Positions 3,725 through 64,000 of a stretch of 64,000 nt of DNA are shown here, one piece after another (positions within the stretch are counted from its first letter, which is position 1; every line of letters starts with the position of its first letter). The stretch covers positions 23,958 through 87,957 of the forward strand of contig NZ_LNYA01000033.1 in assembly GCF_001467615.1 (NCBI RefSeq). The letters are read 5' to 3'. Below the pieces are notes generated by a model. That model had not been told where the DNA came from. It made no database searches and saw nothing but the letters and a program-made list of their open reading frames with translations. The stretch comes from Legionella erythra (lineage in GTDB: Bacteria > Pseudomonadota > Gammaproteobacteria > Legionellales > Legionellaceae). The position numbers and the translations under genes are program-made.

Positions 3725-4972
3725 ATGCTTTATTTCATAAGAGGGATACTTACGGTTTTATTCATCTTTGTTTTAAACGAAGTAATGGCTGCTAACCCCC
3801 TTACATTTAAAGATGCATTGAATCAGGCCTATCAAAGCAATCCAGAATTGCAGGCTGAAATGGACAAAGCACAGGCCATGCGTGGTTACTTCATTCAAAG
3901 CGGGCTTTATCCTAACCCTCAAGTCACACTGACCGCGGAAAACTTTGGTGGCTCAGGTGCCTACAGCAGTTATGAATCTGCAGAAACGACACTTTCTGTA
4001 ACGCAACCCATCCCTTTAGGTCATCGATTACAGTACCTCAAAAAAGCAACTTATGCGGATTATCTCGCTTCTCTGGCCAGTATTAATGTGCAAAAAACAG
4101 TGCTGTATGTCGCTGTAGGTGTGGCTTACGTAGATGCATTGTATGCGTCTCAATGGCATCTCGTCACCAAGAAGTTAATAAAATTAAACCAAGACATAGT
4201 CTCTGCTATAGAACGGCGTGTAACAGCTGGAGCTGGAGCTGAATTAGACTTACGATTAGCCCAGGTACGATTGGGTGAAGCAAAGATTCAGGAGAGTAAA
4301 GCGGGACGCGAGGCCTTATTACAGCGGGCAAAATTGGCGCGGTTATTAGGAACTAACTTCCGTGTGGATAATGTATTGGTAGATAAAGGACTGCCAGGCA
4401 CGTTATGGAGCTGGCCGCAATTATTAAAGAAAATTGCAGGGAGTCCGCAATTGCTTCAAATGAAACTTCTGTTGCAAGCCAAACGCGCTACCATTACTGC
4501 AGTAAAAAAATCAGTATGGCCTGACTTGAACATTCAATTGGGTGGCCGTCATTTTTCAGATGATGGCAGTAATGCTGCAGTTGCCTCAGCTTTTGCTCAA
4601 GTTCCTGTGTATGATCGAAATCAAGGAAGAATCCTCACCGCAGAAGCTCAATACACTCAAACTGCCCATGAATATCGAGGAACCCAATTGGCAGTGCGCC
4701 AAAATCTCTACGCATCCTTTTTACAAGCGCAGCAAAATAATTACGAAGCACAACTGGTGACCAAGTCGTTGTTACCCTTGGCTCGTAAATCCATAAAACT
4801 TGCTCAAGAAGGGTATCAAATGGGACGTTATACCTACATTGAATTATCTGTGGCTTTAAATGCTTTGTATGAGGAAGAACGACATTATCAACAAGCCCAT
4901 GCCGATTATCATAAATCCTTAATTCAGATTACAGGACTTTTGGGGCTGGATAATCCCAAGGAGAGCAAATGA
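3725..4972 (+). CDS. czcC: outer-membrane efflux protein, CzcC/HelC type
   Basis: A 415-residue TolC-family outer-membrane channel subunit of a tripartite heavy-metal pump. It has a signal peptide (cleavage near MA-ANPLTF), the opening motif LTFKDALNQAYQSNPELQAE of the outer-membrane efflux repeat, and a second repeat in the C-terminal half. The length is normal for CzcC. Its stop overlaps the czcB start (ATGA at 4969-4972), so the two are translationally coupled. The L. pneumophila homologue set is known as helCBA. Confidence 0.9.
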   Translation: MLYFIRGILTVLFIFVLNEVMAANPLTFKDALNQAYQSNPELQAEMDKAQAMRGYFIQSGLYPNPQVTLTAENFGGSGAYSSYESAETTLSVTQPIPLGHRLQYLKKATYADYLASLASINVQKTVLYVAVGVAYVDALYASQWHLVTKKLIKLNQDIVSAIERRVTAGAGAELDLRLAQVRLGEAKIQESKAGREALLQRAKLARLLGTNFRVDNVLVDKGLPGTLWSWPQLLKKIAGSPQLLQMKLLLQAKRATITAVKKSVWPDLNIQLGGRHFSDDGSNAAVASAFAQVPVYDRNQGRILTAEAQYTQTAHEYRGTQLAVRQNLYASFLQAQQNNYEAQLVTKSLLPLARKSIKLAQEGYQMGRYTYIELSVALNALYEEERHYQQAHADYHKSLIQITGLLGLDNPKESK

Positions 4973-6207
4973 AATTTTTAAAACCATTCATTATTATACT
5001 CACTATTATGTGTGCATTTCATGTTTGGGCAGAGGATGCGTCAACCGCCGGAGAAGAAAAGGAACATGAAGAAACCATAGAAAAAGGACCACAGGGCGGT
5101 CGGTTGTTTAAAAAAGATTCACTAGCTATGGAGCTTTTAATTTTTGAACGGGGTATGCCTCCTCATTTCCGTGCCTACCTTTATGATAATGGAGAAGTAA
5201 TCTCACCTGATAAAGCGCGATTAACTGTTGCGTTAACCCGCTTTTCTGGAAAAAAAGAAACCATTAATTTCACGCCTGTTGAGACTTTTTTACAAAGTAA
5301 TGAAGTGATTCGTGAACCCCATTCCTTTGAAGTAGGGATTAACTTAAATATCAAGGGGCAAAACATCACCTGGCATTATGAGACTGCTGAAGGACGCGTT
5401 AAAATTCCCCAGACCGTTTTAAAAGCCGCAGACATCCAAACTGAAGTCGCGCGAAGCCAAACGATTAAAACTCAACTCAAAGTAGTAGGAAAAATTGTTC
5501 CCAATCGCGATACCCTGACCCCTATTTATGCCCGTTATTCAGGAATTATCAAAGCAATCAATAAGAATTTGGGTGACGAGGTAATCAAAGGAGAGGTTTT
5601 AGTCACGATTGAAAGTAACGAGAGCTTACAAAATTACACCATTACCGCACCGATGACAGGGACTATTGTACAAAAGTATGCGACCAATGGTGAGTTGGCA
5701 CAAAGTACAAAGCCCATTTTTGAAGTGGCTAATCTTGCTAATGTGTGGGCAGATTTCACCTTATATCGCAAAGAAGCGCCTTTGATAAAGTCAGGTATGG
5801 AAGTCACCGTGACGGGGGATGAAGGTAAGCCCCAATCCACGAGCACCATTTCTTACATTGCTCCTTTAGGGATTGAAGACAGTCAGACTACTTTAGCTCG
5901 CGCGGTTATCCCTAATGAAGTTCGTGCGTGGTTGCCCGGTATGTATGTGAATGCAGCAATCACCATTAAGGAAAAAAATGTGCCTGTTGCGGTTCTTCTA
6001 TCTGCCATTCAACGCCTTGAAGAACGCGAGGTGGTTTTTGTTCAACAAGGCGATTACTTTGAGGCGACTCCTGTAACCATAGGGCAAAAAGATGAAGAGT
6101 GGGCAGAGGTAGTGTCAGGTCTTGATGCAGGCCAACGCTATGTGAGTAAAAACAGTTTCTTTATGAAAGCTGAATTAGGTAAAGATGGCGCAAGCCATGA
6201 GCACTAA
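4969..6207 (+). CDS. czcB: membrane-fusion protein, CzcB/HelB type
   Basis: A 412-residue periplasmic adaptor linking the RND pump to the outer-membrane channel. It has a signal peptide ending near VWA-EDAST, the CzcB-type N-terminal domain (GPQGGRLFKKDSLAMELLIFE), a split lipoyl/barrel-sandwich region (VGKIVPNRDTLTPIYARYSG ... ITAPMTGTIVQKYATNGE) and a beta-barrel. The His-rich stretch of some CzcB proteins is absent apart from the C-terminal SHEH. It is followed by czcA after 9 bp. Confidence 0.9.
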   Translation: MKFLKPFIIILTIMCAFHVWAEDASTAGEEKEHEETIEKGPQGGRLFKKDSLAMELLIFERGMPPHFRAYLYDNGEVISPDKARLTVALTRFSGKKETINFTPVETFLQSNEVIREPHSFEVGINLNIKGQNITWHYETAEGRVKIPQTVLKAADIQTEVARSQTIKTQLKVVGKIVPNRDTLTPIYARYSGIIKAINKNLGDEVIKGEVLVTIESNESLQNYTITAPMTGTIVQKYATNGELAQSTKPIFEVANLANVWADFTLYRKEAPLIKSGMEVTVTGDEGKPQSTSTISYIAPLGIEDSQTTLARAVIPNEVRAWLPGMYVNAAITIKEKNVPVAVLLSAIQRLEEREVVFVQQGDYFEATPVTIGQKDEEWAEVVSGLDAGQRYVSKNSFFMKAELGKDGASHEH

Positions 6208-9366
<3,159 letters not shown>

Positions 9367-17047: not shown

Positions 17048-18082
17048 ATGGAGAAAGCCTTGAATTTACTGGATGGTCAAAATGACAAAAATCAAAAGTT
17101 TGGGGTAGATAAGGTTTTCCATCCTTTGGATGTTCATTTTGATACCAATTCTTTGTCGGCCTGGTTGTCATTTTATTTTCAGGTTCATGTTAAAGGTGCG
17201 CCTGAAAAAACAGTCCAGGCGAAACAAAAAGATTTATCTAAGTTTTTAAAATTTTTTCAGATGGAAGTAGGACATGACCAGGTGGATAATTGGACTCCTG
17301 CAGTAAGCAAACAATTTCAACGCTCATTGTCTAAAACTATTTCTGAGAAAACCGGAAAAGCATACAAAGCGACTTCTATTAATCGAACAATGGCTACCAT
17401 TCGTCATGCAGGACGATGGCTTTACCAACAAAGACCATTGATTGCAGGTGATCCCTTATCAGGGGTTAAAGATTTACAGACTGAGGCTCCAGTTTGGAAT
17501 GGCCTGAATTCAAAACAACTCATGCGTTTAAAGGCAGCTTGTGAACAACGTGCTAAAATATGCACCCGGAAAAATCAAAATGCATTATTGGAAACGGCTG
17601 TCTTTTATGTGTTGTTGGGAACGGGTTTGCGGGAATCCGAACTGGTCTCATTAAATGTTCACCAGTATCATTCAAAAGGCCTTCATTCTGTAGTGCGACA
17701 TAAGAGCAAAAGGGTGACTATTAAAATTCCTTTACCGCAAGAAGCCAGAGAGCATTTGGATAATTATTTAAAGAATCGCACTACAGAACCAGATGAGCCT
17801 TTGTTTATTAATAGAGCAGGGAATCGTATTAATACTCGGAATATATTTCGAATATGTCAGCGAGTTTTAAAACAAGTGCTTGCACTTTTGCCTGAGAATG
17901 AGCGATTTGAATTTACACCCCATAAACTTCGACATACTTTTTTGAAAAAAGTAACAGATAAGCATGGAGTGCATTTTGCTCAGGAACTTAGTGGAAATGT
18001 TTCAATAAAAGAAATTTTTCGTTATGCGAAGCCCAGTCAGGACGAAATGCAGGAAACAATAGAACAATTATTTGAAAGTTAG
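17048..18082 (+). CDS. tyrosine recombinase / integrase
   Basis: A 344-residue XerC/D-like site-specific recombinase. There is an N-terminal SAM-like core-binding domain (about 33-130) and a catalytic domain with R195 (GTGLRESEL), Lys near 219-221, H292-x-x-R295 (PHKLRH) and nucleophile Y326 (IFRYAKPS). The usual second His/Trp is N317 (SGNVS). No tRNA or obvious att duplication adjoins it, so it may act on the element or be cargo. Residues 18-22 (FGVDK) are encoded by the third copy of the 17-mer repeat. Confidence 0.85.
   Translation: MEKALNLLDGQNDKNQKFGVDKVFHPLDVHFDTNSLSAWLSFYFQVHVKGAPEKTVQAKQKDLSKFLKFFQMEVGHDQVDNWTPAVSKQFQRSLSKTISEKTGKAYKATSINRTMATIRHAGRWLYQQRPLIAGDPLSGVKDLQTEAPVWNGLNSKQLMRLKAACEQRAKICTRKNQNALLETAVFYVLLGTGLRESELVSLNVHQYHSKGLHSVVRHKSKRVTIKIPLPQEAREHLDNYLKNRTTEPDEPLFINRAGNRINTRNIFRICQRVLKQVLALLPENERFEFTPHKLRHTFLKKVTDKHGVHFAQELSGNVSIKEIFRYAKPSQDEMQETIEQLFES
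17099..17115 (+). repeat. third copy of the integrase-linked 17-mer
   Basis: TTTGGGGTAGATAAGGT, identical to the minus strand of 17008-17024, lies 51 bp inside the integrase reading frame. Being conserved within coding DNA as well as upstream argues for a protein-binding site. Confidence 0.6.
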
Positions 18083-55309: not shown

Positions 55310-55534
55310 TTAATGAGTCTGTACGCCCCGTGCTTCCTTCCACTGACCAGGCGTATTTAAAAACAGAGATTGTTCTTTTTTAATTTTTTGATGTATTTCC
55401 TGACGATGAATAATTACATCTTGTGGTGCATCGAACCCTAAGCGGACTTGATTACCCTTAACACCGAGCACGGTGATATAAATGTCATCATTGATTAGTA
55501 CGGTTTCGCCTATTCTACGTGTAAGTATTAACAT
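55310..55534 (-). CDS. csrT: CsrA paralogue of the CsrT/LvrC type
   Basis: A 74-residue RNA-binding regulator. [28 protein letters not shown] and the [11 protein letters not shown] end match CsrA, with the RNA-contact residues L4 and the basic C-terminal arginine region (R44 area) kept. Such paralogues sit in Legionella ICEs beside lvr genes; CsrT of one ICE is reported to repress conjugation genes. RBS AAAGGAAC. Last gene of the leftward regulatory operon. Confidence 0.88.
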
Positions 55535-55553: not shown

Positions 55554-55757
55554 TTAGTGAATTGAATATTCTTTTTTTTGTGAATCAATCTCGAATCGAA
55601 GCGCTTCGCATGCCAATCGTGCCTCCATTGCAATGTGCCAGAAATCGCATTCAGGGATTTCCTGGTAGGCCAGAGCCAAAGACTCAGAGCAAGCGTTTAA
55701 AAGACAGTACAGTTCTTCCTTTGTAAACAGTTTTAAACATGGAATTTGTTTCATCAT
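55554..55757 (-). CDS. small Lvr-type protein before csrT
   Basis: A 67-residue helical protein. I start it at the ATGATG of 55757, which overlaps the stop of the preceding gene and has GGGAG upstream; the frame continues upstream inside that gene. There are four cysteines (CLKLF, YCLLNAC, PECDFW). It lies where Legionella elements carry lvrB or a similar gene; I cannot be sure of the name. Confidence 0.6.
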   Translation of the reverse strand: MMKQIPCLKLFTKEELYCLLNACSESLALAYQEIPECDFWHIAMEARLACEALRFEIDSQKKEYSIH

Positions 55758-56428
55758 GCAACTCCCAATAACTGGCGAATTTTCGCAAGGTGTGTTGTTG
55801 CAATGTCTTTTGATTGAGGCAAAGCGCACAGCACCTTCTCTTTAATTTCCGGGATCTGGTGTCCTTGTCTCATTAAATGACATACCTGTTCATATGCCTC
55901 TTTAAATACTGCAAAAGAATGGCCTTCATTATCAATTTCCAGAAATTTAAGCCCCAGTCTTTTGGCAGTAAATTTAACCACTGCATGACTCCAGTTTGGG
56001 TTCGTTGAATAAGCGCTGTTTAAAACCTCCCTATGCGCCTCGGCAGCAGAAGGCAGGCGCAAATCACTATAAAAGCCAAGACACAAAGCTCGAAACTGCA
56101 GGCAATTGGGTGGAAATTCACAAAACTTGTCGCCTTTACTCAATGTCATTAATCGCTCCACACCACTGTCTAATGCTTTTGGAGTTAAATCTTTAAGTGC
56201 AGCAAACCAAACTCCTGTATCTTTCACTCCATGCTTACTGATAAAAAGTTGCCCGTATATTGCAGTCAGCTTCATCCAGAGGCTGGACAAGTGTTCCTTC
56301 GATAAATGAACCGGAGTTGAGTTCACTGCCTGAGGTGTCCCAGAGTGAGTCGATTGAAATGCCATGATGTTCGCTGACTCGCTCAAGTGCTGTTTGGTTA
56401 AGAGTGCTTTGATTTGTACCACGCTCAT
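55754..56428 (-). CDS. replication-protein-P-like Lvr-region protein
   Basis: A 224-residue protein. LSSLWMKLTAIYGQLFISKH, then FAALKDLTPKALDSGVERLM and FPPNCLQFRALC, resemble phage replication protein P (a helicase loader). I keep the start at 56428 because AAGGAG lies 8 bp upstream, although this makes a 194-bp overlap with the previous gene in another frame. It precedes the small gene and csrT in one operon. Confidence 0.65.
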   Translation of the reverse strand: MSVVQIKALLTKQHLSESANIMAFQSTHSGTPQAVNSTPVHLSKEHLSSLWMKLTAIYGQLFISKHGVKDTGVWFAALKDLTPKALDSGVERLMTLSKGDKFCEFPPNCLQFRALCLGFYSDLRLPSAAEAHREVLNSAYSTNPNWSHAVVKFTAKRLGLKFLEIDNEGHSFAVFKEAYEQVCHLMRQGHQIPEIKEKVLCALPQSKDIATTHLAKIRQLLGVA

Positions 56429-57233
56429 TGTGATGACTCCTTAATTGTCCTTGTGCCTTTTGTAGTTGTTTTTGCATGTATTGGGCATCTCGCTCAAGCC
56501 AGTTAATGAATACTGGATTAAAGTCAGCCCATAGAGTGTTTTGTTTCTTGTTGTGCTTGATAAACGCCTGAATTTCTTCTTTGTCAGTGACTTTGGTTAG
56601 TCCCATGGAAAATGCCATTTCGATGGTTTTTGTGTTTGGGTAAAAGTCATCGCTAATTTGCTTTTTGCTGCAAGAAAAATCATTGCCCGCAGTTTGAGTT
56701 TGTTTGTTTGAGTTAGTTATATTAAATATATTAATATTCTTTACTGCAGTATCAGCTGTGTATTGATCTGTGTACAGTTCGGTGTATTCCTGTGTGTTAT
56801 CAAGCGATTTTAATTCATCATTTTTCTTAGCATTTTCAATGGTTTTAGATATGGATTGTTCATCCCTGCATTCTGTGTACACTTCTGATTGCTCAAGAAA
56901 ATCGGCATAAATCTTTGGTAATTTTGGGAACTGAAATTGTAGTTTTTGGCCTTCACTAATAACTTTAAAATCTTCCGGACATTGTTTTTCAATGGATCGC
57001 AAATAACTTCGAATGGTTTCTTTTTGAGGAGCTCCTGACCCAGTTCTTCCAGGAGCTTTGCTGATAGTTAATAAATCGGCAATGTCTCGGTAAGTAATTC
57101 CAGTAACTATTCCTGTTAGCGGATTTGCTAGCGTTATAAGAGACTTTATTAAAGTTGTGTGTGCGTGTAATAACCCTTTAAATCTATTCTCAATATTTAT
57201 TCGTGCTTGTTTATATGGTTCAAAATAATTCAC
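56235..57233 (-). CDS. LvrA-like DNA-binding protein
   Basis: A 332-residue protein from a GTG at 57233 with AAGGGAA upstream. Near the N-terminus GIVTGITYRDIADLLTISKA and GAPQKETIRSYLRSIEKQCP form a likely winged helix-turn-helix, like phage replication or regulatory proteins. The C-terminal part has an arginine/lysine-rich helix (FINWLERDAQYMQKQLQKAQ). By position it corresponds to lvrA of Legionella elements; the assignment is from memory and not certain. Confidence 0.65.
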   Translation of the reverse strand: MNYFEPYKQARINIENRFKGLLHAHTTLIKSLITLANPLTGIVTGITYRDIADLLTISKAPGRTGSGAPQKETIRSYLRSIEKQCPEDFKVISEGQKLQFQFPKLPKIYADFLEQSEVYTECRDEQSISKTIENAKKNDELKSLDNTQEYTELYTDQYTADTAVKNINIFNITNSNKQTQTAGNDFSCSKKQISDDFYPNTKTIEMAFSMGLTKVTDKEEIQAFIKHNKKQNTLWADFNPVFINWLERDAQYMQKQLQKAQGQLRSHHNERGTNQSTLNQTALERVSEHHGISIDSLWDTSGSELNSGSFIEGTLVQPLDEADCNIRATFYQ

Positions 57234-57278
57234 ATCAAATTCCCTTTACCCGTACTATAGAATAAAATTTTATCTATT

Positions 57279-57311
57279 CATGGTTAAAAAGTCAATGAAA
57301 ATTTAACCATG
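57279..57311. promoter_or_regulatory. candidate operator between divergent regulatory operons
   Basis: CATGGTTAAA (57279-57288) and TTTAACCATG (57302-57311) are perfect 10-bp inverted copies with a 13-bp spacer, in the 224-bp gap between the leftward Lvr-type operon and the rightward repressor gene. This is where the C1-like repressor would be expected to bind. Confidence 0.55.
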
Positions 57312-57457: not shown

Positions 57458-58108
57458 ATGAAAAACTCGTTACTCGATAACCCATCTAGTGCAGAATCAC
57501 GAGGAAAAAGAATAAGATTTGTTCGCGACCATCTTTTATCTCTTACTAGGAATGAATTCTGTCAAGATAGCGATATTACTTCTGCAGCAATCAAAGGATG
57601 GGAATTGGGCTGGGGAGGTGGATTAACTCAGCAGGGGGCTGAAAAAATCGCTAAGCGTGCTAAACAACTCAATGTGTATTGCTCAGATTCATGGCTCATG
57701 CATGGCATTGGGCGAGAGGCTATTCATCTAACAAAAGATTTAGATATACAAGAGATCGATGAAAATCATATCGCTAAGGAATTACTGCTATTTAGCGAAC
57801 TCCATAATTCTGTTAATGCTATTGTTAAAGATGATGGAATGACCCCCCTTTTATACCCAGGTAATTATGTTGCAGGAATAATATACAATAAAATTGAAAA
57901 TGCTATTGGAAAAGAATGCATTGTTATTGATGATAACAATGATATATACATCAGAATTCTGATGCCAGGTAACGACCAAAACTTATTTAATTTAGTTTGT
58001 CTCAATCAAAATCCAAGTCTTGTAAAAAAAGAAATTAAGAATATATCTGTAAGAATTGCAGCCCCTATCATTTGGATACGTAGAGTTTTTTTAGAGAGCG
58101 ACTCTTGA
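57458..58108 (+). CDS. C1/Xre-type repressor with a non-catalytic S24 domain (LvrR-like)
   Basis: A 216-residue regulator. The N-terminal domain (SRGKRIRFVRDHLLSLTRNE ... DITSAAIKGWE) is a phage-type helix-turn-helix. The C-terminal domain has the S24 fold pattern but reads KDDGMTPLLYPGNYV where self-cleaving repressors have GDSMxP: G127 replaces the serine, and the partner lysine also seems absent (IYIRIL). It should not self-cleave, so derepression must come from another signal. It is divergent from the Lvr-type operon; no clear ribosome-binding site. Confidence 0.75.
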   Translation: MKNSLLDNPSSAESRGKRIRFVRDHLLSLTRNEFCQDSDITSAAIKGWELGWGGGLTQQGAEKIAKRAKQLNVYCSDSWLMHGIGREAIHLTKDLDIQEIDENHIAKELLLFSELHNSVNAIVKDDGMTPLLYPGNYVAGIIYNKIENAIGKECIVIDDNNDIYIRILMPGNDQNLFNLVCLNQNPSLVKKEIKNISVRIAAPIIWIRRVFLESDS

Positions 58109-59007
58109 TGGGACGATATGATAAAGACATTTTAAATCATCCAGAATTTTATATAGTTAAATTCACCCAAAATTTAAACAAGCCCTATGTTCTTTTTATC
58201 CATGGGGGCCCTGGGTTTAATTGCGGAACAATAGAATATCTTATTGATAATAATAAATTATTTAGCTCACTAAACTACAATATCATATTGTATGATCAAC
58301 GAAACTGCGGTAAATCTAAGAAAACATCTATGGTCGTTTCGCATCAGGATAATATAGAGGATTTACAAAGAATAATTTTATATATAACAGAATTTTGTGA
58401 AATTGAAACGCAAGCTTTAATTGGACATAGTTATGGTGCAAAATTACTTTTTGATTACTATAAAAAATTCTCATCATTTATCCCAGGTGTTTTTGTCTCT
58501 ACAGCCAATTCTATACTTACTCCCCGACTAAATAACTTGATGCTTGATCTATCCTATTTAAAAAAGAGTAACTTGGTTGAGTATAATAAATTATTCAATG
58601 CAATAAATGATCTTGATCTTAATAAAATATGGGAAATATCAGAACAATTAACACCTCTATTTCAAGAAAACGAAGATAGGCCATACTTCTACTGGGCAAA
58701 TTTAGAGTGTTTCCATATGGTTCAGGAAATTCAAAAGCGCATTCGACTTCCTACAGATACAGAAACGTTCATTAGTGTAAGAAAAGATCTTTATTCAAGT
58801 GAATTAAATTTTCCAGTTGATATTGATACGCTTGGTATCTCTAAATTATGGATAAATGGTTTTCATGATTTCGTTATGAACGGACAAGAAGCAGCGTTGT
58901 CAAAAAATAAAAATATTTTAACTTTCTATAAATCTGCTCACTATCCACACATAGAAGAAAATAATCATTTTAGTGAGATTTTAAATGAATTTATCAAACA
59001 TTCTTAA
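58108..59007 (+). CDS. alpha/beta hydrolase, proline-iminopeptidase-like
   Basis: A 299-residue cytoplasmic hydrolase. The oxyanion motif HGGPG and the nucleophile elbow GHSYG are both present, with YDQRNCGKS between them and a likely catalytic His in SAHYPHIEENNHF. HGGPG plus DQRxxGxS is the proline iminopeptidase signature, so a peptide or small amide/ester substrate is plausible. The ATG at 58108 overlaps the repressor stop (TGATG). Lying in an operon with a sensor system suggests that it makes or destroys a signal. Confidence 0.8.
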   Translation: MGRYDKDILNHPEFYIVKFTQNLNKPYVLFIHGGPGFNCGTIEYLIDNNKLFSSLNYNIILYDQRNCGKSKKTSMVVSHQDNIEDLQRIILYITEFCEIETQALIGHSYGAKLLFDYYKKFSSFIPGVFVSTANSILTPRLNNLMLDLSYLKKSNLVEYNKLFNAINDLDLNKIWEISEQLTPLFQENEDRPYFYWANLECFHMVQEIQKRIRLPTDTETFISVRKDLYSSELNFPVDIDTLGISKLWINGFHDFVMNGQEAALSKNKNILTFYKSAHYPHIEENNHFSEILNEFIKHS

Positions 59008-60076
59008 AGTTATTGTCTTAATATTTTTTTTATCAGTATGCCCTGCTGTCATGGCTAATAATCAAATTAAAATATGCTTAACAGGGAGAGTTGTTGAAAA
59101 CTTAAAATCCTATGGCCAATCATTTGAAAATGCTGCGAATCTTGCTTTAGACCAAGGTGAAAAATTTGGTAAAGTCGAGATTAAAAATTATTTTTACAAT
59201 AATAGGCCTCTAGAGCCAATGCATGCGTATAAAAAAATGGTAAGTGAGGGCTGTTCAGCAATTATTGGATTTGAATATCTTTCCGATCTTTTATTGGCAA
59301 TTAAAGAACAGAAAAACAATAATATACCAATATTTACCTCGTATGCTAGCACTACTGAAGTAGATAAATTGCCTAATAATGTATTTATATTTATGCCAAG
59401 CTATGATTCCCAAGCCAAAGAAATGTTAAATTATTTACGGAGCCGATTTAATAAAATAGATGACGTATTATTAGTTACAGAGATTAATCGTGATGAAATG
59501 TTAAAATATAAAGAGGTATATTCTGATGTCTTAAATAAAGAATATATTAAATATGACACATTCGATTTTTTAGAAAATGATAAAGAAATTTTAAATAAAT
59601 TACATATATTTTTAAAGAAAAAGAAATATAACTATGTTTTTCTATTGTCGGGTGCAATCGCATCAGCAAAGATTGCCGATGCTATGAATAATCAAAATAC
59701 AATATTTATCGGGACAGAGAATTTTGGGTCATCAGTAAGTCCAACTTTTTTTATGCGGCTTAATAATAAATTGATCCAATCGTATTTTATTCGCAATTTA
59801 GATTTCATAAAACCAAGCCCTGCTTTGCAGGCATTTGAAAGTATTTATACTAAAAAATATCATGAACAACCTACAATATTAGCTGCATATACATACGATG
59901 CGATGCGAATTATTTTAAACGCATTTAAGGTGGTTGGTTTCATTGATACACATAGTATATTTAAGATTAATTATAATGGGATCACCGGGGCATATATCAA
60001 TAATGGTAAATTCCATCGTTCGACAAATTATATAATTTTGTCTGTAAATAAAGATGGATATAAATATGAAAAATAA
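58985..60076 (+). CDS. periplasmic ligand-binding protein, LivJ-like
   Basis: A 363-residue exported protein (signal peptide ending near VMA-NNQIK). The fold is that of family 6 periplasmic binding proteins: IKICLTGRVVENLKSYGQSF, a Rossmann-like lobe with GCSAIIGFEYLSDLLLAIKE, IPIFTSYASTTEV, and a hinge region AAYTYDAMRIILNAF. No ABC transporter genes adjoin it, and it overlaps the hydrolase by 23 bp and the kinase gene, so it probably presents a ligand to the kinase as LuxP does to LuxQ. Confidence 0.75.
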   Translation: MNLSNILKVIVLIFFLSVCPAVMANNQIKICLTGRVVENLKSYGQSFENAANLALDQGEKFGKVEIKNYFYNNRPLEPMHAYKKMVSEGCSAIIGFEYLSDLLLAIKEQKNNNIPIFTSYASTTEVDKLPNNVFIFMPSYDSQAKEMLNYLRSRFNKIDDVLLVTEINRDEMLKYKEVYSDVLNKEYIKYDTFDFLENDKEILNKLHIFLKKKKYNYVFLLSGAIASAKIADAMNNQNTIFIGTENFGSSVSPTFFMRLNNKLIQSYFIRNLDFIKPSPALQAFESIYTKKYHEQPTILAAYTYDAMRIILNAFKVVGFIDTHSIFKINYNGITGAYINNGKFHRSTNYIILSVNKDGYKYEK

Positions 60077-62150
60077 AAGCCATTCAATAAAAACTATATT
60101 TATAAAAAAAATGGCATACTCAGCATTTATTCAGTTTTTTGTTTTTGGATTGATTTTACTACTGGCAAAAGAGTATTTTGATAATAGTCAGATAGGATCA
60201 TTATCGAAAAATTTAATAATAAATGACTCATTTACTACGGATGAAATCGGAAGATATCAGTTGCTGAATAATAAACACGCATTAGATTTGGCATTGTACA
60301 ACTTAGAAAATGAACGTAAATTAGACTCAATAAAGTTTGTCTCCGCTCAAAAACCATTGGAGAATCTTGGATCTTGTCAGTCAATTAGTGGCAATATCCA
60401 TACAATTTGCAAAGCGGATAATGGTCAGTTTTCCGGTATAACTGCAATTAAAAAAGATGACCAAATACTTGGATATGTGATATCAAAAAAGCAATATAAC
60501 TCGATTTTTTTAATACCTGCTTCTCATGGTCTTTTATTGATTTTAATAACGGTTATTGGAATATTTCTTTTTAATTTTCTATTTCTATTCTTATCTATGA
60601 GAAAGACCATTGCAAATAGCACAGGATATTTACTTGATTTTATTTCTTCACATCAAAATAATAATGCCTCTGAATTTTCGAAAGTAGATATTGATGAGTA
60701 TAGACAAATAGCAACTAAATTTATTGAGGAACATAGCCAAACATTAAGCTTACAAAAGGAAAAGGCTTACTATGATGCAAGAAAACAGATTGCTGAGCAA
60801 GTTGCTCATGACATCCGGTCACCATTAGCGGCAATTAATACAGCTTTATCTGATGTGACTTCAATTTCAGAAAATAAGCGTATTATGATTAGAAGTGCAG
60901 CTAAGAGAATTAATGATATTGCGAATAATATACTATCACAGTCAAAACATAATTCTTCTGAGTTGGGAAGTAACGATTTAGATAGAAATATATTACCTGA
61001 ATTAATATTTGTTGTTTTAGACAATATCGTTTCTGAAAAACGGTATGAATATCATAACTCAAAAATTGACATCCAATTAAAAGTATCACCATGTTGTTAT
61101 AGTAGTTTTTCTAATATTAATCTAGTTTCTTTTAAACGAGTATTATCAAACCTTATAAATAACAGCATTGAAGCTATTGATTGTAGTGGGTTCGTAATTA
61201 TTTCCCTACGATGTGATAATAACCAGGTTGAAATTACTATTGAAGATAACGGATGTGGGATTCCTTCAGAAATTCTACCCCAAGTAACTGAGCAAGGATT
61301 TAGCTTTAATAAAAAAAATGGTGCTGGTTTTGGTTTATCCTATTCTAAAAAATACATAGGATTGCTTAATGGAAAAATAGAACTTCATTCAGAAGTTGGT
61401 ATAGGTACGAAAGTTACAATTTTTTTACCTCGCTCTAATCCCCCTGTTTGGTTCTGTGAAGCATTATTTATTAAAAATCAATCGGTAATTATTGTATTGG
61501 ATGATGATCCATCAATCCATGAGGCATGGAATGAAAAATTTATAGGTTTTTCTGACATTAGGATAGTACACTTCTATAATGCATCTGATTTGACATTAAA
61601 AAAAATAGAAGAATTAAAACCTGATATATATCTAATTGACTATGAGTTACTTGCGGATAATAAAAACGGATTGGACGTTATTGCTGATCTTGAATTAAAA
61701 ACCAAAGCTTTTCTAGTAACCAGTTGTTTCGAAGACTTGACTGTACGCAATCGATGCAAAAAACTTGATGTTCAAATTATACCAAAACCATATGTTCCTT
61801 ATATTAAGATTAACCTCTGCCATCAGCGTGTAAGTAATGCATCCTTCGTTTTTATTGATGACGATGAAATGATGCGAACCACTTGGGCCTTTGCCGCAAG
61901 TGATGCGGGTACACAAATCGCGCTTTATTCCTCCATGGATGAATTCATGAGTGTAATTAATGATTATACCAGTGATACAATAATTTATATTGATTCAGAT
62001 CTTGATAACAATATCAAAGGGGAAATTGAAGCTAAAAAGCTTTTTGATCTTGGTTTCACGGAAATTCATCTAGCTACAGGACATTCTCCGAAGCGGTTTG
62101 AAAATATGCCTTGGTTAAAGTCTATTATTGGGAAGTCGCCACCTTTTTAA
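60054..62150 (+). CDS. hybrid sensor histidine kinase with two receiver domains
   Basis: A 698-residue membrane kinase. Membrane helices near 22-39 and 158-181 flank a small periplasmic sensor. The H-box is QVAHDIRSPLAAI (H252), with N-box NLINNSIEAI, G1 EDNGCGIP and G2 GAGFGLS. After the ATPase are two receivers: VLDDDP ... YLIDYEL ... PKPY, then FIDDDE ... YIDSDLD ... ATGHS, the second ending with a short GKSPPF. An alternative ATG at 60066 would trim four residues. The ligand is probably brought by the binding protein before it. Confidence 0.88.
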   Translation: MDINMKNKSHSIKTIFIKKMAYSAFIQFFVFGLILLLAKEYFDNSQIGSLSKNLIINDSFTTDEIGRYQLLNNKHALDLALYNLENERKLDSIKFVSAQKPLENLGSCQSISGNIHTICKADNGQFSGITAIKKDDQILGYVISKKQYNSIFLIPASHGLLLILITVIGIFLFNFLFLFLSMRKTIANSTGYLLDFISSHQNNNASEFSKVDIDEYRQIATKFIEEHSQTLSLQKEKAYYDARKQIAEQVAHDIRSPLAAINTALSDVTSISENKRIMIRSAAKRINDIANNILSQSKHNSSELGSNDLDRNILPELIFVVLDNIVSEKRYEYHNSKIDIQLKVSPCCYSSFSNINLVSFKRVLSNLINNSIEAIDCSGFVIISLRCDNNQVEITIEDNGCGIPSEILPQVTEQGFSFNKKNGAGFGLSYSKKYIGLLNGKIELHSEVGIGTKVTIFLPRSNPPVWFCEALFIKNQSVIIVLDDDPSIHEAWNEKFIGFSDIRIVHFYNASDLTLKKIEELKPDIYLIDYELLADNKNGLDVIADLELKTKAFLVTSCFEDLTVRNRCKKLDVQIIPKPYVPYIKINLCHQRVSNASFVFIDDDEMMRTTWAFAASDAGTQIALYSSMDEFMSVINDYTSDTIIYIDSDLDNNIKGEIEAKKLFDLGFTEIHLATGHSPKRFENMPWLKSIIGKSPPF

Positions 62151-62163
62151 AGAAGAAATTCAT

Positions 62164-62388
62164 ATGAATTTAGAAGAAAAAAATAAGCTAATTCACGATG
62201 TTACGAATTCATTCGTAGTTATTAAAAGCATATCAAAATCAGCATCTAATTTTGTTAATAAAATCTTAGAAAATGATAACTCCCTTAGTGTTGCTCAAGC
62301 CGATTTATTTAAAAACGCAATGTTATCCCTTCAAAAAGAGATATCTAAGATTGAAATTATATTTCACGATAATTTTGATAAATGGTAG
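62164..62388 (+). CDS. mini histidine-phosphotransfer-like protein
   Basis: A 74-residue helical protein from ATG 62164 (AAGAAG upstream), 14 bp after the kinase gene. NKLIHDVTNSFVVIKSISKS looks like an H-box of the DHp type (compare AHDIRSPLAAI in the kinase), then a second helix QADLFKNAMLSLQKEISKIE. It has no ATPase domain, so it could relay phosphate between the kinase and the response regulator as a two-helix hairpin. This reading is from pattern only. Confidence 0.5.
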   Translation: MNLEEKNKLIHDVTNSFVVIKSISKSASNFVNKILENDNSLSVAQADLFKNAMLSLQKEISKIEIIFHDNFDKW

Positions 62389-62392
62389 AAGT

Positions 62393-63361
62393 TCATTGAT
62401 ATGAAACCACCTTGTCCCAATCAATTGAGTTGGTTAAATTTCCTACTACGATACTAAAATTGTAGTTATCATCTAATTTTTGGGACTCAAAAATATATTT
62501 TTTCCATTCAACCAGGTCTTCTTTATATTCATTTTCTGAAAACAAGAACAATATATTTTCTTTTTCTTTTATTTTTTTGATAAGTTCATCTGGAAAAGAA
62601 TAATCTTTTAATAAATCAACTTGACTGTTAATTTTATCTTGATCTGATATGAGCAACCACGTTGGTTTACCATCTCTTGTCAAAAATAAAAAACTACCCA
62701 ATCGATCAATAAGATAGTATTCAATTGCGGCATTTTGTTTAATAATTTTATTAAACAAATCTTTGAATGAATCATTATTTAATAAGGATTTTAATGATCC
62801 ACCACCATAATTAAGAGAATCACGTGAAAAATTAATAAAATATTTATTTGTTAACTCATTAATATAGATTTTCAATTGTTCAAATAAATTAGCATGTGTC
62901 TTTAATATAAATTTATCTATAATCCCATCATTAAACGCGTTGATTGCAATATCACTATCAGCTTCGGCTGTTAGTAGTATCTTATATATGTTTCTATCAC
63001 GTAGTTGTTTACAAAATTCAATACCATTAATTTTCGGCATTGAATAATCAACAACTAATACAGCAACATTATTAAAACGTGAAGGTTCATAAATCATATT
63101 AACCATGTTGAATGTTGTTGTTATAGAGTTGCCATTTAGATCTAAGTTATTATTCTCTTTTTCCATTGCTGTGAATTGAAATATGCTTTCGTTACTATTT
63201 TTGCATTGCTCCATCGCGCTATCTGGGTTCGTAAACATGAGTAGATTTTCTTGTTCGTACAACTCTAAAGCAACAGCATCTAGAAAAGCTTGATTATCAT
63301 CAAGAAAAACAACTTTAGTGGGATGATAGAAACTCATTATATTAGTATTTAATACATTCAT
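62393..63361 (-). CDS. response regulator with an unrecognised output domain
   Basis: About 322 residues from ATG 63361; the frame starts further up at a TTG. The receiver is complete: VVFLDDNQAF (acidic pair), VLVVDYSMPKINGIEF (phospho-acceptor Asp), ILLTAEAD (Thr) and FILKTHA (Lys), with an unusually long insert between the first two. The C-terminal 140 residues (RLGSFLFLTRDGKPTWLLIS) match no output domain I know and show no helix-turn-helix. It converges on the kinase operon with a 4-bp gap, so it is the likely partner. Confidence 0.75.
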   Translation of the reverse strand: MNVLNTNIMSFYHPTKVVFLDDNQAFLDAVALELYEQENLLMFTNPDSAMEQCKNSNESIFQFTAMEKENNNLDLNGNSITTTFNMVNMIYEPSRFNNVAVLVVDYSMPKINGIEFCKQLRDRNIYKILLTAEADSDIAINAFNDGIIDKFILKTHANLFEQLKIYINELTNKYFINFSRDSLNYGGGSLKSLLNNDSFKDLFNKIIKQNAAIEYYLIDRLGSFLFLTRDGKPTWLLISDQDKINSQVDLLKDYSFPDELIKKIKEKENILFLFSENEYKEDLVEWKKYIFESQKLDDNYNFSIVVGNLTNSIDWDKVVSYQ

Positions 63362-63532
63362 ATTTTTTCCATTTACATCTAACGTATAAACCAACTGTTA
63401 AGATCTTATTGATAATTCTTCTATAAGAGAAGATAAAATCTATTTTTGATTTCTTTCTTTATATCATGTTCTTTTAAACCGAAATTGCTCCTTATGTTAT
63501 CACAACGCGATAGAACCACAAAAAAACAACAT

Positions 63533-64000
63533 TTATCTAAAAAATTCCTTCTGTTGAATTTCTCTTATGATTTGAGTATTTATTTTATATTTAACCCAGC
63601 CACCCCGCCCAACCTTTTGATCGGCTCGGATAAGTATTCCTGCATTATTTAAACGGAACAAAGTGTTTTTAAGAGATTTTTGATTGACTTGAGTTAATTT
63701 GGATATTGATTCGAGTGTTAACTCATCAGTTGTATCTGATTTGTTTATTTTAATGTTTTTGTATAGTGCAATTATAATTGCCCGCTGGTTGCCAACTAAT
63801 TTTGAAAAGCTAATTTGAGGATTTTTTTCCAATACTGGATCTTGAGCATCAAATGTTTTAGATGCCAAATCATTAACCTTTTCGTGAACCGATTGTGAAC
63901 CGTTATTTGTATTGTTATTAGATACAGGGTTCGCATGAACTGATGTGCTTGCAACAGGCACCGATTGTTGGGTGATGCTATGCTCGTGAACCGATTGTGA
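63533..64000 (-). CDS. 5'-truncated gene with winged-helix-like C-terminus
   Basis: The open frame runs off the right edge, giving at least 156 residues. The C-terminal 85 residues have a winged-helix outline: QRAIIIALYKNIKINKSDTT, LTLESISKLTQVNQKSLKNT, LFRLNNAGILIRADQKVGRG. The N-terminal part is low in complexity with the peptide SQSVHE occurring twice. A DNA-binding or replication/partition role is possible; the missing 5' part prevents a firm call. Confidence 0.65.
   Translation of the reverse strand, partial: SQSVHEHSITQQSVPVASTSVHANPVSNNNTNNGSQSVHEKVNDLASKTFDAQDPVLEKNPQISFSKLVGNQRAIIIALYKNIKINKSDTTDELTLESISKLTQVNQKSLKNTLFRLNNAGILIRADQKVGRGGWVKYKINTQIIREIQQKEFFR
63881..64000. repeat. 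repeated codons for SQSVHE in the last gene
   Basis: CGTGAACCGATTGTGA occurs near 63884-63899 and again at 63985-64000, about 101 bp apart, encoding SQSVHE twice on the minus strand. The second copy touches the window edge, so more copies may follow outside. Confidence 0.65.

Follow-up and report, generated by a model that had tools for sequence, protein, structure and literature searches.

What is sensed, and what is controlled, by six signalling genes that lie beside the transfer genes of a Legionella erythra contig? The locus occupies positions 57458-63394 of the window, by which we mean the whole stretch of 64,000 nucleotides that was analysed (C33:23958-87957, contig NZ_LNYA01000033.1, in a genome of 3.24 Mb and 36 contigs). 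Judged by gene content and homology, it is a real, conserved and modular signalling locus of conjugative elements with an LqsR-family output, in which the output genes are fixed and the enzyme-and-sensor pairs differ. We favour, with a little more than even confidence, a plasmid-borne quorum (donor-sensing) phosphorelay whose exchangeable synthase-receptor cassette would control plasmid transfer. The six open reading frames (ORFs) are as follows.

57458..58108, + strand: PrpA/LvrR-like repressor, weakly S24-like in its C-terminal part and without the Ser-Lys dyad.
58105..59007, + strand: alpha/beta hydrolase of the proline-iminopeptidase kind (abhydrolase 6.9e-11; TTG start, with an ATG at 58108).
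58985..60076, + strand: periplasmic-type binding protein, Peripla_BP_6 (Pfam 3.8e-12), with a leader-like N-terminus by eye.
60054..62150, + strand: hybrid histidine kinase with HisKA, HATPase_c (5.9e-21), a receiver (4.2e-7) and a second receiver-like domain.
62164..62388, + strand: small two-helix protein with an invariant His, here SML (ORF 62128-62388; likely start ATG 62164).
62393..63394, - strand: LqsR-family response regulator (PDB 6sy9_A, E 3.7e-39, residues 16-332).

As an earlier note on this DNA had described, five tightly packed rightward genes are followed 4 bp on by a convergent response regulator, and the ORF calls place the group beside transfer genes. Successive ORFs overlap by 4, 23 and 23 nt (repressor/hydrolase, hydrolase/binding protein and binding protein/kinase), 13 nt separate the kinase stop from the SML ATG at 62164, and 4 nt then lead to the convergent stop of the regulator. 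The hydrolase, binding protein, kinase and regulator each have a Pfam match above cut-off; none was found for the repressor or SML. When 27 stretches fetched around binding-protein matches (L030-L056) were searched by tblastn, 16, including our own contig, contained all six genes in the same order, with the kinase interrupted in L037 and L047 and the regulator of L030 matching only from residue 99. In the remaining 11 the regulator lies apart (L042), the locus is rearranged (L051, L052), incomplete (L033, L035, L053) or distant (L054, L055), or only the hydrolase, binding protein and kinase are present (L048-L050). The note had postulated one conserved circuit beside conjugation genes and this distribution bears it out: the order is not unique to the strain, and the homologues are not scattered singly far from transfer genes.

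The output of the locus can be assigned from its regulator, which matches 6sy9_A, a chain that we take to be LqsR, over its whole length with the C-terminal domain included. Its receiver has a Pfam match of 1.6e-9, and the receiver residues Asp116 and Lys165 are kept in 46 of 47 and 47 of 47 aligned LqsR-like rows, respectively. By these matches the regulator is a member of the LqsR family, the output of Legionella quorum sensing. LqsR-like proteins occur in 104 of 143 Legionella-family genomes, a count that takes in general receiver matches. LqsR has been described as the prototype of a new regulator family, encoded in a cluster with lqsA and lqsS (PMC3376566, PMC5289986). The host itself carries a chromosomal lqsR beside an LqsS-like kinase (C24:278000-295000, L091), the product of which matches the same chain at E 6e-173, in support of its identity as LqsR; inspection by eye of the ORFs in that 17-kb stretch revealed no lqsA-like gene. 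With a host LqsR and an LqsS-like kinase at hand, and with competence and a genomic island of L. pneumophila described as being under Lqs control (PMC5289986), the plasmid protein might feed into or compete with the host Lqs system, control of transfer being secondary. We judge this improbable. The window regulator is only 31% identical to the chromosomal LqsR and at least 42% identical to a close mobile-element clade, in which it groups with the other mobile-element copies in a 41-row tree; it also keeps its own repressor and likely operator, and in each of three named plasmids that were examined its gene has transfer or partition genes for neighbours.

The history of the input genes differs from that of the output genes. 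Rows of the hydrolase type are split over separate clades in the LqsR-like trees (41 rows and 18 rows) and in the repressor tree (17 rows); the 18- and 17-row trees hold the 28 labelled loci minus identical and short rows, with the distant L100 repressor dropped. Forcing the hydrolase-type rows into one clade costs 205 (LqsR) and 149 (repressor) log-likelihood units, and such a clade is rejected by approximately unbiased (AU) tests with p 1e-4 (LqsR, 18 rows) and 6e-37 (repressor, 17 rows), in which the groups had been set by gene content but which were run once the first tree was known. The fewest changes between hydrolase-containing and multi-transmembrane (multi-TM) types are five on the LqsR tree and four on the repressor tree. 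Pairwise identities among 17 chosen loci, again with the distant L100 repressor set aside, fall into two blocks of high Spearman correlation, the pairs not being independent: repressor-LqsR 0.91 (105 pairs), repressor-SML 0.81 and LqsR-SML 0.80 in the first, and kinase core-binding protein 0.96 (36 pairs), kinase core-hydrolase 0.86 and hydrolase-binding protein 0.87 in the second, with values of 0.55-0.70 across the two. The co-variation of kinase core and binding protein favours the note's proposal that these two act as a pair. The same division is visible in single comparisons: a GNAT-type L. lytica plasmid (L092) shares 92% identity with the window in the repressor and 67% in the LqsR-like protein and has neither hydrolase nor binding protein, whereas the hydrolase-type locus L034 shares 64% in the repressor, 45% in the LqsR-like protein, 70% in the hydrolase and 68% in the binding protein. 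By these sequence comparisons, input cassettes have been exchanged between elements, the repressor, SML and the LqsR-like regulator having stayed together. The LqsR-family nature of the regulator and the exchange of the input cassette are the two points of interpretation that the earlier reading missed. Since related elements carry different enzyme-sensor pairs, each type would sense a different chemical.

The range of cassettes was surveyed in 81 stretches labelled from seed proteins, with Pfam and NCBIfam run on representatives. A close core, comprising a repressor, SML and LqsR-like regulator of the window kind, is combined with a hydrolase and a family 6 binding protein (PBP6); with hydrolase, SDR and PBP6 (L051 and L052, the latter with a cyclase fused to the small protein); with a GNAT and a kinase of many hydrophobic stretches, as seen by eye (L092, L093, L095, L096); and with an arylformamidase-like cyclase and a kinase of the same multi-hydrophobic-stretch kind (L100, L101, the latter also with a short GNAT). 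More distant kinases are accompanied by a GNAT (L143, L144), by a dipeptidyl-peptidase, SBP_bac_5 and distant LqsR-like genes (L140-L142), by an isochorismatase and SBP_bac_8 (L191, L192, L194 and L203, where no LqsR is labelled), by SDR and PBP6 (L189, L200), by a MetX-like abhydrolase and PBP6 (L054, L146) or by a nitroreductase and PBP6 (L055). In the fetched Legionella-family stretches 60 kinase loci were counted. An enzyme with one of ten labels lies within 3.5 kb of the kinase in 45 of them, a solute-binding protein is present in 37 and an LqsR in 39, of which 30 have an enzyme as well; hydrolase plus PBP6 accounts for 21 of the 45 enzyme-bearing loci (18 of the 21 window-type). This count covers fetched loci, with L204 (the same stretch as L144), kinase pieces below 120 aa and G025:C89 left aside, and may double split elements (e.g. 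L035/L105, L047/L104). As a control, 78 neighbours of 14 other kinases of our own genome (13 stretches) matched no cassette family twice or more; 25 of 106 families were listed in this control, so that single cassette-family members may be hidden. Outside the window on the same contig, a cyclodipeptide synthase gene (CDPS 1.1e-52) overlaps that of a PAS-hybrid kinase with its own Hpt (G000:C33:8019-10788, L298), a second enzyme-plus-kinase pair on this contig.

Enzyme and receptor chemistry agree in two of the cassettes (iminopeptidase-like enzyme with an amino-acid-type binder, and dipeptidyl-peptidase with SBP_bac_5), most of the enzymes act on common metabolites as hydrolases or transferases, and the binding protein of the window resembles branched-chain amino-acid binders. 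These features would suit a nutrient or host-state sensor, in which the binding protein reports an outside metabolite, such as amino acids or peptides inside an amoeba, the enzyme merely processes the same compound and transfer is tied to the environment and not to the population. We consider such a sensor unlikely, though not negligibly so. Across four receptor kinds, a change of receptor goes with a change of enzyme (exchange itself was tested for hydrolase versus multi-TM types); most of the sampled enzymes look cytoplasmic, lacking the leader-like N-termini that the binders possess (by eye; the MetX-like enzyme is ambiguous); a Pfam search found no transporter among the six genes; and the output belongs to a quorum-sensing regulator family. 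The agreement of enzyme and receptor chemistry in two cassettes counts for the quorum phosphorelay as well.

The hydrolase of the window, for which no signal peptide was seen by eye, has proline iminopeptidases as its nearest solved chains. Its candidate active-site residues (HGGPG, S108, D254 and H278) are invariant in 12 of 12 rows and, among the best 120 of 207 relatives found, GHSYG is kept in 119 and HGGPG in 118. It also matches a quorum-quenching lactonase model weakly (E 0.0045, far below cut-off). Pheromone plasmids report plasmid-free neighbours, and weak matches of this kind to signal-degrading hydrolases, together with the frequency of hydrolytic classes among the cassettes, would fit an enzyme that destroys a self- or recipient-made signal in a circuit reporting such neighbours. 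We give this little credence, as the GNAT, SDR and MetX-like enzymes of sister loci are not obvious degraders and an enzyme inside the cell with a receptor outside would suit making a signal over clearing it.

The binding protein, aligned over 14 rows and nearest to branched-chain amino-acid binders, is found in 26 of the 143 genomes. In the kinase the HisKA match (0.00077) is below the Pfam cut-off, and the H-box HDIRSPL and the Asp of the first receiver are invariant in 10 of 10 rows; the phospho-residues, His252 and Asp529, were numbered by counting from the kinase-core alignment. The model of the sensor region consists of two long helices around a mixed domain (mean pLDDT 73), and its best PDB match is the CitA PAS domain at E 0.024, with none reaching 0.001. 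Owing to the weak model and the lack of a match at 0.001, the sensor is described only as PAS-like and likely to be periplasmic, and a LuxQ-like double-PAS sensor was set aside. The kinase core (E 1e-60) is present in 46 of the 143 genomes, with L. quateirensis, L. rowbothamii, L. parisiensis, L. bozemanae, L. gratiana and L. drozanskii among the carriers. More distant relatives (best 80 of 260) are mostly from Bdellovibrionales, Bacteriovoracaceae and Elusimicrobia and mostly have no other label; by labels alone, a few are accompanied by a binder (e.g. L230, L232, L237, L238). A gammaproteobacterial metagenome-assembled genome (L274) has a full set of dipeptidyl-peptidase, SBP5 and kinase, with an LqsR-like gene about 6 kb away.

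SML is likely to be a phosphotransfer step, an assignment kept because of its invariant His, its hairpin model and its gene position. All 19 rows of one alignment have His11, as do 103 of 104 sequences in a larger one, where only a truncated row lacks it; the AlphaFold model is a confident two-helix hairpin (pLDDT 92); and the His motif presumably resembles the H-boxes of Spo0B and HisKA. None of its 103 database relatives has an assigned Pfam domain. In L052 (6309-7184, - strand) one ORF fuses the small His protein with an arylformamidase-like cyclase, so tying the relay protein to a cassette enzyme.

Control of transfer would be exercised at the divergent intergenic region between the repressor gene and the lvr genes; the following features lie in or beside it.

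57280..57310, no strand assigned: predicted operator ATGGTTAAA-N13-TTTAACCAT, in the gap that separates the repressor gene from the divergent lvrA.
57267..57295, - strand: TTGACT-N17-TAAAAT, a promoter-like site of the lvrA-side operon that agrees with the consensus at 10 of 12 positions.
56235..57233, - strand: LvrA-like, first gene of the divergent transfer-side operon (named by position, prpA-lvrABC-like).
55754..56428, - strand: LvrB-like (named by position).
55310..55534, - strand: csrT/lvrC, CsrA-family (Pfam CsrA 9.1e-24).

The gapped palindrome ATGGTTAAA-N13-TTTAACCAT has a single match in the window and none in 100 shuffles. A like palindrome is found upstream of 24 of 30 core repressor genes, the best spacer being 13 in all 24 with 6-23 allowed, and in 17 of 23 distinct upstream stretches against two of 2300 shuffles. 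The window, L030, L031 and L092 share GGTTAAA arms, L034-L047 have GGTAAAA, and in L051 both arms are altered. The palindrome is not confined to one input type, being present at hydrolase, GNAT (L092) and cyclase (L101) loci. The first hexamer of the promoter-like site falls inside the palindrome; the promoter scan, weak on its own, gave four sites in the region against 2.7 expected (s.d. 1.7). The palindrome is likely to be the operator of the repressor at the lvrA promoter. Repression of the lvrA-tra side, which the earlier note had supposed, is likely as well, because the palindrome recurs and the promoter-like hexamer lies within it.

The repressor, with relatives in 54 of the 143 genomes, scores below the Pfam cut-off for HTH_19 (0.18) and S24 (0.14). 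In the columns that we take, by motif, to be those of the catalytic Ser and Lys of the S24 family, 30 core loci have Gly (25), Ala (3), Cys (1) or Ser (1) at the first and Arg (29) or a masked residue (1) at the second, the window itself having Gly and Arg. Of ten more distant PrpA relatives, two retain the Ser and one the Lys, and none has the pair, so the dyad has been lost beyond this circuit as well. Without it the repressor is unlikely to undergo SOS-type self-cleavage, and the relay could serve as the inducer instead.

A plasmid is the most likely carrier. The parB-like gene at the window end runs off the contig:

63533..63961, - strand: parB-like gene, C-terminal part, at the contig end; its N-terminal part and parA are at the opposite end.

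This part corresponds to residues 212-366 of an L107 homologue (90% identity) and the part at the contig start, with parA next to it, to residues 1-250 (74% identity); the two pieces were searched separately, and the residues common to both (212-250) fall in a repeat-rich stretch. Four complete plasmid records, from L. sainthelensi, L. longbeachae and L. anisa, match 97% of the 24.4 kb of transfer region at 95.9% identity. Two of these four were examined and are circular, with the circuit between the lvr/tra genes and parA-parB-repB. Four of five related plasmids are typed conjugative, the fifth, from L. lytica, being typed non-mobilizable. On the strength of the split parB-like gene, parA and the plasmid relatives, the carrier is most likely a circular conjugative plasmid of about 88 kb with F-type transfer genes. 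The same features led us to set aside the status of an integrative and conjugative element (ICE), under which the note had placed the circuit. Our genome gave no match to the RepB of the L. sainthelensi plasmid, and a different ParA is encoded at the start of the same contig. In L096 and L095 the contigs that carry the core measure 1.05 Mb and 3.27 Mb, respectively, which makes integrated forms likely as well. The contig of the circuit also carries a tyrosine recombinase (Phage_integrase 8e-20; window 17048-18082, + strand) and heavy-metal efflux genes (window 3725-9366) similar to CusA/CzcA-type clusters of other Legionella plasmids; L298 11237-19998 has heavy-metal efflux genes too, judged from ORFs alone. 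In a related L. longbeachae plasmid (NZ_CP020895.2, L287), YcaO, TfuA, ThiF and ATP-grasp genes lie directly upstream of traA, in the place of the traT, csrA and lvr genes of its relatives.

In the self-contained quorum phosphorelay that we prefer, the cytoplasmic hydrolase would make a small amino-acid- or peptide-like signal that exits the cell, and the binding protein is predicted to catch it in the periplasm and set the kinase. Phosphate would then pass from kinase His252 to receiver Asp529, to SML His11 and to Asp116 of the LqsR-like regulator. The repressor is predicted to act through the palindrome at 57280-57310 and so to silence the lvrA-lvrB-csrT-tra promoter, and the LqsR-like regulator would relieve or tighten this repression, an action proposed because the repressor lacks the S24 Ser-Lys pair for SOS-type self-cleavage. 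A wider reading, possible but somewhat doubtful in our estimation, is that Legionella-family plasmids and ICEs share a new quorum architecture, with a fixed output (operator, PrpA-like repressor, His-relay protein and LqsR paralogue), swapped synthase-receptor-kinase cassettes, a private signal per element that times transfer and LqsR as anti-repressor of a non-self-cleaving repressor. The swapped cassettes would then be those with hydrolase, GNAT and arylformamidase on the close core, with at least seven enzyme chemistries in the wider kinase family.

A number of observations weigh against the quorum phosphorelay, in addition to the timing of the AU tests and the non-independence of the linkage pairs given above. 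The signal, the direction of the enzyme, the phosphotransfer and the LqsR-to-repressor step are ones that we infer, and the C-terminal output domain of LqsR is described as being without known function (PMC3376566). SML has no match to the Pfam Hpt families, its profile alignment to the kinase core reached 0.9% probability and its fold matches to phosphotransfer domains were not significant, for which reasons it was not classed as an Hpt or HisKA-type protein; its comparisons with unrelated alignments were negative as well. The linkage blocks partly track gene position, in that outer genes stay and inner genes swap. Fifteen of the 60 kinase loci have no labelled enzyme, several of them being cut by contig ends, and L048-L050 consist of a hydrolase, binding protein and shorter kinase with no labelled repressor, SML or LqsR; as the input block alone, they imply that this block can serve other outputs. 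Control kinases also lie near metabolic enzymes (HgmA, GSDH, peptidase M13, a GFO_IDH_MocA oxidoreductase and a haem-oxygenase-like protein), so that what sets the cassettes apart is the repeated occurrence of the same enzyme kinds, not the presence of an enzyme beside a kinase; ten control neighbours inspected singly, including the GFO_IDH_MocA and haem-oxygenase-like ones, contained no member of a cassette family. Four loci (L033, L052, L095, L096) have weak copies of the operator, and L093 and L151 have none. The arm kind does not strictly match the repressor lineage: L032 and L101 combine the two kinds, one in each arm, and the weak copy in L033 has the arms of the other lineage, GGTTAAA. 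Finally, no exact overlap between the two contig ends was found, and closure of the plasmid is inferred only from the parB-like gene at both.

The circuit resembles several known systems in part. It shares with Legionella Lqs (LqsA, LqsS/LqsT, LqsR) an LqsR-family regulator with an enzyme gene and a sensor kinase gene nearby; lqsA is not in the locus, the sole enzyme by Pfam besides the kinase among the six genes being the abhydrolase. It differs in its sensor, a binding protein and a kinase modelled with one periplasmic domain, whereas LqsS has six TM segments, in being likely plasmid-borne and in encoding a repressor and a small His protein of its own. Vibrio LuxS/LuxPQ-LuxU-LuxO likewise combines a binding protein and hybrid kinase with a small His protein and a response regulator, but the circuit lacks LuxS, its small protein is not an Hpt match, its regulator is LqsR-like with no Sigma54_activat domain (LuxO type) found by Pfam, and all parts lie in one mobile locus. 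Conjugation is under quorum control in the TraR/TraI system of Ti plasmids and the RapI-PhrI system of ICEBs1, and here too a mobile element would count donors or recipients before transfer; the circuit differs as a phosphorelay with an LqsR output and exchangeable enzyme-receptor cassettes. Where the tra region begins, the repressor gene and the LvrA-, LvrB- and CsrA-like genes form a set resembling prpA-lvrABC of Legionella mobile elements (PMC3218107, PMC3864950), from which the circuit differs in that its repressor heads an operon with a signalling cassette and lacks the S24 dyad. Among the papers listed by literature searches, no title or abstract opening described the circuit, and the main text of the L. 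lytica genome paper (PMC11828895) does not contain 'LqsR', 'quorum' or 'histidine kinase'.

If the quorum phosphorelay is correct, transfer of Legionella plasmids would be timed by private chemical languages that are traded as cassettes, and LqsR would be a general output module and not a single host regulator. The enzyme-ligand pairs (iminopeptidase-like, GNAT, arylformamidase-like, dipeptidyl-peptidase, isochorismatase and MetX-like) could then be searched for new signals, and the small His protein and its 103 Pfam-less relatives would acquire a function.

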